From: Candidatus Methanorudis spinitermitis
GTDB lineage: Archaea; Methanobacteriota; Methanobacteria; Methanobacteriales; Methanobacteriaceae
Assembly (NCBI GenBank): GCA_031286225.1
Contig: JAITUQ010000025.1
Coordinates: 1-64,000 of the forward strand
Length of the DNA stretch: 64,000 nt
Reading direction: 5' to 3'
Under the pieces are notes generated by a model, which saw only the letters and a program-made list of their open reading frames with translations, was not told where the DNA came from and did no database searches. The position numbers were made by a program, and so were the translations under genes. Shown piece after piece: positions 20,869 to 55,712 of the stretch (the first letter of the stretch is position 1; every line of letters begins with the position of its first letter).

Positions 20869-22278
20869 ATGGTATTATTATCATTTATTAATCCATTATC
20901 ATTAGAAGGTCAAGAAATACTTGGTGAGAGGATAGACCTTAACTCGGTTTTTGATGAAAATGAGGAACTTATAAGAATTAGTGAATATTTTAGTGAAGGA
21001 ATTATTAGTGATGAGGGGAAAATTCCTAAAAATTATGGAGAATTAGCTTTAAAAAGGATTGAATGGTTTTTTAGAGAAAAAAATGACAAAGATTTTAAAA
21101 TTAATGAGTACTCTTACTTTTTCAATGAAGCTATAGAAGAATTTGATGTAGTAGCTTTCCATTTATTAGCTCAAGCTATAGCTAATAAATATAATACAAA
21201 TTCTCGAGAATCAAAGCTATTTACAGAATCTCAAAATAGAATTATCGAAGAAAGATTAAATAGAATTTCAACTGACATTAGACATGAATTAGTGGATAAA
21301 ATCTTAAATGAGTTACTTAATAATATTAACGCCCTTAAATGGACTGATTTAACCGATTTAATCTCATCAAAAAAGATATTTTTAGCTGATTTACTCCTAA
21401 AAAATGGAGAAATAATCTTAAATGAAGAAGAATTTAGACAGGCATATCATGAAGATATTAAAGATTGGCCTGAGCGAAGAATTTCTATGGTTTACAATAA
21501 ATTAGTAGGATACAGAATAAGAGAATTAATCTTAACTAAAATCATTGTTCAAAATACTGAAGATTATTTAAAAAGTATTAAAGAAAAATTAGCTACAATC
21601 GAGATTCACCCAGCAATTAAAGTTTTAGGAGAAGAATTAGAAGATCATTTAAATAAACTTAATGAAAAGTATAGTAGATTCTATTCAGGAGGAGGATTTG
21701 GTGAAGGAAGCTATGAACTAGCTAAATTATCTAAAGAAGCTTTTCCTCCCTGTGTTCTTAAAACTATAGAAGGTGTAAAATCAGGAAATAGAAATGATGC
21801 AATTGTCTTATTTTTGACCTCTTTTATTTCTTATGCAAGATTAAATCCCCAAGTTTTTAGACTTGATCAAACTATAAATGTAACAGACGTTGATCCAGAT
21901 TTAAAGATAACTTATAATGAAATATTACCAATAATTAATGAAGCAGCAGCTAATGCTGTTCCTCCATTATTTGAAGATCAACCACAAGAAAAAATTAATA
22001 TTGTATCAAAATTAGGTTTTGGAATGTATAGTGAACCTAAATTGGAAAATGAAGGAGAAACTAAGTGGTATACTCCAATGAGTTGTGAAAAAATTAAACT
22101 TCACCTTGGAAATCTTTGTAGAGCAGATAAAACTTGTAAAAAAATTGGAAATCCTCTGTCTTATTACTCTTTAAAAAAATGGCAGATTAAAAAGGAAAAT
22201 GAAGGAAAATCAAAACAAATAAAAAACAATACTAAAGGAAAAGTAAATAAGAATGAAATAAGTAATGAAAAAACATAA
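20869..22278 (+). CDS. priL: DNA primase large subunit
   Basis: Regulatory subunit of archaeal replicative primase; binds PriS and sets primer initiation and length. The 469-residue protein has a helical N-terminal domain that docks PriS and a C-terminal domain with four cysteines that bind a [4Fe-4S] cluster in the family: FPPCVLKTI, PMSCEKIKLHL, GNLCRAD and KTCKKIGNPLSYYSLK. A basic tail follows. ATG 20869 has no Shine-Dalgarno site, so the message may be leaderless. priS follows 238 bases downstream on the same strand; the pair is probably expressed together. Confidence 0.93.
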   Translation: MVLLSFINPLSLEGQEILGERIDLNSVFDENEELIRISEYFSEGIISDEGKIPKNYGELALKRIEWFFREKNDKDFKINEYSYFFNEAIEEFDVVAFHLLAQAIANKYNTNSRESKLFTESQNRIIEERLNRISTDIRHELVDKILNELLNNINALKWTDLTDLISSKKIFLADLLLKNGEIILNEEEFRQAYHEDIKDWPERRISMVYNKLVGYRIRELILTKIIVQNTEDYLKSIKEKLATIEIHPAIKVLGEELEDHLNKLNEKYSRFYSGGGFGEGSYELAKLSKEAFPPCVLKTIEGVKSGNRNDAIVLFLTSFISYARLNPQVFRLDQTINVTDVDPDLKITYNEILPIINEAAANAVPPLFEDQPQEKINIVSKLGFGMYSEPKLENEGETKWYTPMSCEKIKLHLGNLCRADKTCKKIGNPLSYYSLKKWQIKKENEGKSKQIKNNTKGKVNKNEISNEKT

Positions 22279-22516
22279 AATAGCTATTAATCATTATTTT
22301 TTATAATTATAATAGCTTTAAATTATTCTTATTTAATTATATATCTATAAATTACTTTTATTTAGAATTATAATTACTATTACTAATTACTTTTTTAATT
22401 AAATATTTATAAATAATTTTTATTTACATTATTACTATTATTTATTCCATGAATATATTCATTTAAATCAAATTTAAATTAACTATTATGATTAACAAGC
22501 ATTTAATGGTGTTTTT

Positions 22517-23437
22517 ATTTTCACTGAAGCTACATTAAAAGAAAGAAGGCAGTATTATCGTGAAGAATGGTCAGAAAAAGACCTTCCTAGTTTTATTGTT
22601 GAGGAACTACATAAGAGAGAATTTGGTTTTGATCATTTTGGAAAAGGGCCTAATGATAGATATAAAGTCTTCAAATCAAGAGACTATCTTAAAAGATTTT
22701 TGAAATATAAATCTCCCTTTGCAGCTTATATTTCAGTAGCTTTTTACAATAACCCAAGAAGAAGGGAGGATTGGCTTAAATCAGAATTTGTTTTTGATGT
22801 GGATGCTAAAGATATGCCAATTCGATCATGTAATTGTGAAAATGTTTGCAAAACATGTTTAAATGAAGCTTTAGAATTTGTTCAAGAGTTAGTTGATTCT
22901 TTAAATGATGATTTAGGTCTTTCCAATATTCATATAGTCTACTCTGGAAGAGGTTACCATATTAGAATTTTAGATAAAGATATTATGGAAACTAGTAGTG
23001 AACTTAGAGGAGAACTTGTAAAATATGTTACAGGTGCAAATATTCCAAAAAACTCAATTTCATTAGGTTATACAAACCTCTTCAATAAAAGAGTTAAAAG
23101 AAATATTTTACATTTAACAGGTCATGAAAAAATTGAAGGAATTAATCCAAAACTAATGAAGGATACAATTAAAAATAGCTATTTTTTAAATGATAATCAA
23201 TGGGGATCATTTCAAGGACGTATTGGCCCAATAAGATATAAAAATTTATTAAATGCAATGGCAAGAGTGAATTTAACTGCAGTTGATGCTAAAGTTTCAA
23301 TAGATCTTAAAAGGATACTTAGACTTCCAAGTTCTCTTCATTCTAAAGTTAGTATGAAGTGTGTCGAGGTAAAAAATCCAGAAACTTTTGATCCATTTAA
23401 AGAAGCTGTTCCTAAATTTATTAATGAGCGAAAGTAG
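22517..23437 (+). CDS. priS: DNA primase catalytic small subunit, apparent ATT start
   Basis: Synthesises RNA/DNA primers. The open frame starts after a stop at about 22496 and contains no ATG, GTG or TTG before codon 62 (TTG 22700), which would delete essential sequence. Homologous sequence begins much earlier: FTEATLKERRQYYREEWSEK and REFGFDHFGKGPNDRYKVF are standard PriS N-terminal motifs. ATT 22517 lies five bases after GGTG (22508-22511), exactly the spacing used by ATG genes here, and gives 306 residues, the normal size. Catalytic residues are intact: FVFDVDAKD (metal-binding Asp pair) and YSGRGYHIRI, and a zinc knuckle CNCENVCKTC. The alternative is a one-base deletion in the T run at 22512-22516, since ATG 22507 (ATGGTG) is in another frame. 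Operon with priL. Confidence 0.9.
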   Translation: MFTEATLKERRQYYREEWSEKDLPSFIVEELHKREFGFDHFGKGPNDRYKVFKSRDYLKRFLKYKSPFAAYISVAFYNNPRRREDWLKSEFVFDVDAKDMPIRSCNCENVCKTCLNEALEFVQELVDSLNDDLGLSNIHIVYSGRGYHIRILDKDIMETSSELRGELVKYVTGANIPKNSISLGYTNLFNKRVKRNILHLTGHEKIEGINPKLMKDTIKNSYFLNDNQWGSFQGRIGPIRYKNLLNAMARVNLTAVDAKVSIDLKRILRLPSSLHSKVSMKCVEVKNPETFDPFKEAVPKFINERK

Positions 23438-55187: not shown

Positions 55188-55712
55188 CTGAATAAAGAAG
55201 CTATAAAAAAGATTTTAAAATTTTCTATTAAAGAAAAGGAAATAATAAAAGCTCTTGATTTACCAGAGGAAGTATTCTTACCATTAATATTTTCTGTTAG
55301 GTTTGGTGGAGATTGGAGTGTAAATAAAAATTCTAAAAAGCTAATGTCAGTTAAAGAAAAGATAACTAAGTATGATAAGGAAAAAAAGATTGGTTATACT
55401 TTAGAAACAATTTATCTATTTATCAATCCTATTTTACTAAAAAAAGAAGGTAAAATATATAGAATGGAAAAATGTGGGAATAAAAATCAAAGAGAATTGG
55501 TTGAAAGACCCCATTCTGTTGTAGTAAATGGAGATTACATTTTAAAAGCTGTTTTAAATCCTAAAGATATGAAAATAGCTATTAAACATTTAAAAGGACC
55601 ATTAACATTTTTTGGATCAGCTGCTTATGGATCTTCTCATGAAATAGAACATTTAGCTAATGAAAATATTAAAGGTATTCCTTTTTGGGACTTTGAATAT
55701 GTTTTAGAATGA
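55188..55712 (+). CDS. hypothetical protein of 174 residues with apparent CTG start
   Basis: ATG 55344 gives only 122 residues and has no ribosome-binding site, while the same frame continues upstream without stop to CTG 55188, which directly follows a TAA and lies five bases after AAGGTG (GGTG 55179-55182). No ATG, GTG or TTG lies near that site. The added residues are protein-like: LNKEAIKKILKFSIKEKEII, KALDLPEEVFLPLIFSVRFG, GDWSVNKNSKK. The rest contains ETIYLFINPILLKKEGKIYR and GPLTFFGSAAYGSSHEIEHL. I do not recognise the family; it has no signal peptide or membrane helix. It stands alone between a GNAT gene and an oppositely oriented membrane protein. Confidence 0.7.
   Translation: MNKEAIKKILKFSIKEKEIIKALDLPEEVFLPLIFSVRFGGDWSVNKNSKKLMSVKEKITKYDKEKKIGYTLETIYLFINPILLKKEGKIYRMEKCGNKNQRELVERPHSVVVNGDYILKAVLNPKDMKIAIKHLKGPLTFFGSAAYGSSHEIEHLANENIKGIPFWDFEYVLE

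Follow-up and report, generated by a model that had tools for sequence, protein, structure and literature searches.

AUU start codons are known in bacteria, for example in pcnB of Escherichia coli, whose product is an enzyme that the cell requires in small quantity and that is translated from a weak AUU start. The gene infC, which encodes the fidelity factor IF3, starts at ATT in E. coli and at ATC in Streptomyces and is controlled by IF3, and sigR of Streptomyces starts at GTC and is repressed by IF3 (PMC5472188). A survey of start-codon evolution counted a single change to AUU among 61,358 ancestral AUG starts (PMC5622118), and the gene sets of one genome survey took in annotated AUA, AUU and AUC starts (PMC5397173). 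Our search of the open-access literature, which takes in few subscription journals, returned no relevant report of AUU (ATT) or AUU/AUC/AUA starts in archaea or methanogens, nor of a clade-wide archaeal set of AUH starts such as the one described here. The central member of this set is priS, the gene for the catalytic small subunit of DNA primase, found in the 64,000-nucleotide stretch of DNA that was analyzed (the window). Like enterobacterial infC, priS is an essential gene with a clade-conserved AUU/AUC start that start predictors mis-annotate; unlike PriS, an archaeal replication enzyme, the product of infC is a bacterial fidelity factor that autoregulates. The resemblance to sigR lies in a conserved non-canonical start on one gene, although sigR is bacterial, uses another codon (GTC) and has a lowered expression that was shown experimentally. 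The protein itself is of the same family as Pyrococcus PriS, since a search of PDB profiles matched it over almost its full length to the Pyrococcus-type structures 1v33 and 9f26.

In the window, the stop-to-stop frame of priS covers positions 22496-23437 of the forward strand (313 codons), reads QAFNGVF-IFTEATLKERRQYYREEW... from its opening and is closed upstream by an in-frame TAA at 22493-22495. Seven codons further on stands the proposed start codon, ATT at 22517-22519, from which a protein of 306 amino acids would be read (22517-23437, forward strand). The frame matches TIGR00335 at full length (residues 16-312 of the open frame, 261.3 bits against a cut-off of 143.5, E-value 1.4e-77). 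The large-subunit gene priL (20869-22278, forward strand), which has an ordinary ATG, ends 238 nt ahead of the proposed ATT and matches NF003051 at 7e-120 with 401 bits, under the cut-off of 431 for that family. As the sequence-only reading had reported, the priS frame holds no standard start before codon 62 (counting ATT 22517 as codon 1): the earliest in-frame ATG, GTG or TTG after the TAA is TTG 22700. Such a delay is uncommon, a first canonical start at least 60 codons in being found in only 9 of 353 dominant ORFs over 435 kb of this genome. The same reading held that conserved N-terminal motifs are encoded ahead of codon 62, and an alignment with 16 relatives bears this out, with E9, R10, Y14, E16, E17, W18, P24 and the run R34-E35-F36-G37-F38-D39-H40 all invariant. 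Residues conserved in this way must be translated and would be lost by initiation at 22700; this downstream canonical start was therefore rejected for this genome. Comparison of this genome (G000) with G002 reveals a sharp onset of conservation at TTTAATGGTG, upstream of which the DNA has diverged with many indels, and over codons 2-61 the differences between the two are most frequent at third positions. From such comparisons we estimate a probability of about 0.9 that priS of this gut-type methanogen starts at ATT 22517 and not at an ATG.

The evidence from relatives carries most of this interpretation. We found priS in 132 of 139 family genomes, as well as in outgroup families and in 80 named loci, and read 112 distinct start regions at the codon aligned with ATT 22517. 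This column contains ATG in 69 regions, ATT in 19, ATC in seven and ATA in seven (the latter three collectively ATH), and another codon in ten, mainly in Methanosphaera, whose ATG sits three codons upstream. Apart from Methanosphaera and a few others, the column is thus ATH or ATG across Methanobacteriales; an ATG at -1 relative to it occurs in G018 and in G050, a related genome outside that order. The 33 ATH regions, all from Methanobacteriales, include a single-contig genome (G027), the named strains M. filiformis DSM 11501, M. curvatus DSM 11111 and M. cuticularis DSM 11139, as well as Ca. Methanovirga, Ca. Methanoflexus, Ca. Methanobinarius, Methanobacterium-like genera and family f2 (Methanothermobacter-like), the last two descriptions being group labels from our own reading rather than the output of a tool. 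This distribution strongly supports the earlier proposal of an ATT start served by a GGTG site at a five-base gap.

The sequence-only reading had also considered that one T was dropped from the run at 22512-22516, whose position it gave correctly, so that the true start would be an in-frame ATGGTG; that motif begins at 22506 (22506-22511, forward strand) and not at 22507 as then stated. One extra T would indeed bring ATG 22506 into the priS frame, and the source genome is a draft in 55 contigs. The nearest relative, a separate assembly with 91% protein identity, nevertheless reads TTTAATGGTGATTTTATTTTCAC with identical spacing and no indel, its spacer being ATTTT in place of TTTTT. The 33 ATH regions, with a single-contig genome among them, point in the same direction, and many of these regions lack any upstream ATG (AAGGTG, TAGGTG or TCGGTG). 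Since ATH starts recur throughout many related archaea and at several of their other genes, a sequencing or assembly error is effectively excluded, and we give a missing base hardly any credence.

Another conceivable reading is that programmed frameshifting, or slippage of the transcript over the T run, links an ATG or GTG further upstream to the frame of priS. Consistent with such a link, the GTG within the GGTG box is 8 nt ahead of the ATH codon in many genomes. The out-of-frame ATGGTG is however conserved in only 9 of the 33 ATH regions, and the spacer, read as TTTTT, ATTTT, ATATT, ATCTT or ATAGG, varies from T-rich in some lineages to ATAGG in others, so that relatives share no slippery sequence. 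A frameshift two codons past the start would moreover serve no evident purpose, and we judge programmed frameshifting very improbable.

It has also to be considered whether a canonical codon further upstream in frame initiates translation, the ATH codon then being an internal Ile. About ten ATH genomes carry an in-frame GTG at -9 that overlaps the Shine-Dalgarno (SD) sequence; such a GTG is present in family f3 and in some Methanobacterium-like genomes. In these lineages the GTG could be the real start of priS. An upstream canonical start is nonetheless impossible in this genome and in 14 others: 15 of the 33 ATH regions (L009, L012, L014-L018, L028, L030, L043, L076, L079, L090, L121 and L145) lack any in-frame ATG, GTG or TTG in the stretch that separates the ATH codon from the stop upstream of it. 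A GTG at -9 would also require a separate SD, and the ATH column swaps with ATG, as start codons do. We give upstream initiation very little weight, and for this genome the sequence itself excludes it.

The sequence preceding the ATT is compatible with direct initiation. The predicted SD core, GGTG at 22508-22511 (forward strand), for which the consensus of relatives is GGTGAT, is separated from the ATT by the T run with no base missing. An SD match of at least 4 nt at a spacing of 1-4 was found in 32 of 32 ATH regions tested versus 22 of 69 ATG regions (Fisher p 4e-12, with no correction for relatedness), and 30 of the 32 have a match of at least 5 nt. In this genome, internal ATH codons provide a background of 6% for 4-nt matches and 1% for 5-nt matches, and its own priS SD is just 4 nt (GGTG), a match of the 6% kind. 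The most frequent SD spacing of ATH priS is 2, equal to that of the ATG genes of this genome. A strong SD and a weak start codon thus seem, from these comparisons, to trade off in priS. In the M. smithii-type clade (e.g. L045-L075), priS starts at ATG mostly without an SD, the opposite of its ATH-started relatives. We looked in the genome assemblies for 16S rRNA from which to read the 3′ tail and found none; a short-pattern match in G045 was rejected as a 16S 3′ tail given its location within a protein gene. No RNA-structure signal was detected near the priS start (fold z-score of +0.85), and a scan for sigma-70-type promoters and terminators, with models ill-suited to archaea, gave nothing above shuffled sequences.

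On a tree of 102 priS sequences, unrooted and built without the first eight residues, the ATH/ATG trait requires three changes compared to about 22 when labels are shuffled. ATH is probably the older state, a single one over much of Methanobacteriales, and in the most economical history suggested by the tree the M. smithii/ruminantium-type clade and some Methanothermobacter would have returned to ATG later. The direction of change is an inference, because the root of the tree was not inferred.

In addition to priS, we compared 459 gene pairs between this genome (about 790 kb) and the complete genome G022 (1.6 Mb compared). Several genes have no canonical start near the start of homology here: mfnE, tiaS, hisI, a methyltransferase gene, hisS and a conserved hypothetical gene. 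Their assignments differ in strength, hisI matching NF000768 above its cut-off, mfnE matching NF040622 under cut-off and tiaS matching NF040849 under cut-off with a partial query. In three of these genes, a non-canonical codon here stands against ATG in G022: ATT in hisI (L175:7149-7595) and CTG in hisS (L175:2041-3330), each with the ATG in the same column, and ATT in the methyltransferase gene. The mfnE-like amino-acid kinase gene (L176:8833-9507, G000:C12:28833-29507) has an ATT behind GGTGAT and no in-frame canonical start. ATT, ATC or ATA is found at mfnE in 17 of 17 Methanobrevibacter-type genomes, including M. smithii-type and M. ruminantium-type ones, and in three of the 17 a canonical codon is additionally present a short way upstream, at a distance of a few codons; most outgroups have a canonical codon in the same column, and the SD spacing favors the ATT one codon ahead of the aligned ATG column. 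For tiaS (in this genome at L308 around 1498-1500, G000:C49:59485), the Methanobrevibacter-type genomes read have ATA in 12 cases and ATT in three, and the codon aligned with it is ATG in the Methanobacterium-like and Methanothermobacter-like outgroups. The conserved hypothetical gene near tiaS (L173:17241-18047), which has no Pfam or NCBIfam match, starts at ATT here and mostly at ATT or ATA in Methanobrevibacter-type genomes versus ATG in outgroups; some Methanobrevibacter-type copies also have a GTG or ATG just upstream. An SD-anchored search found no genome-wide excess of ATH codons behind SDs in G000 (ATT 0.84-fold, ATA 1.0-fold), from which we conclude that only a few genes are concerned and that the code is not changed.

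In the mechanism that we propose, pairing of GGTG(AT) with the 3′ tail of 16S rRNA would position the 30S subunit, and the initiator Met-tRNA (anticodon CAU) would pair with the A and U of the codon while tolerating a third-position mismatch. PriS would then begin Met-Phe-Thr-Glu, with Met as the presumed first residue. The AUU start may yield a low but sufficient expression of PriS, a protein needed in few copies, and we put this idea at about even odds. For a cofactor enzyme and for one that modifies tRNA, a low yield would be just as suitable.

In addition to serving as the start, the AUU codon could be regulatory, with a fidelity factor such as aIF1, or another signal, tuning the translation of PriS. 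The control of infC and sigR by IF3 in bacteria offers a parallel (PMC5472188), and the deep conservation of the trait suggests selection for a weak codon. Against this, the ATH trait was lost in large clades, and aIF1 starts with ATG in 7 of 7 genomes checked; there is therefore no infC-like loop on the fidelity factor, and aIF1 as an analogue of infC, with autoregulation of the IF3 type, was rejected. We consider an additional regulatory role of the priS start doubtful. The product of tiaS enables tRNA-Ile2 to read AUA. A wider scheme, in which Methanobacteriales would hold a fixed group of housekeeping genes (priS, mfnE, tiaS, the conserved hypothetical gene and perhaps more) under AUU, AUC and AUA starts as an archaeal translational control through start-codon fidelity, and in which the AUA start of tiaS may let this gene respond to the activity of its own product, is more speculative still, and we advance it very tentatively.

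A very rare type of start is thus held by a replication gene and by several metabolic and tRNA-modification genes across an entire archaeal radiation, that of methanogens from guts and the environment. Gene-finding programs that accept only ATG, GTG and TTG would truncate such proteins, PriS by 61 residues in the present case, or overlook them. The AUH gene set also offers a ready-made natural test of how faithfully start codons are selected in archaea, in which aIF1 fills the role of bacterial IF3.

Three further genes drew our attention during this work. In the window, the sole SD-backed start of a Zn-protease-like ORF (PF05618, 55188-55712) is a CTG at 55188 behind AAGGTGTTTAA, and its first canonical codon comes 52 codons in. 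Elsewhere in the data, SD-like sequences precede a possible ATA start of a signal-peptidase-like gene (L163:11217-11894) and a possible ATC start of a transglutaminase/pseudomurein-binding gene (L169:10944-12215, reverse strand).
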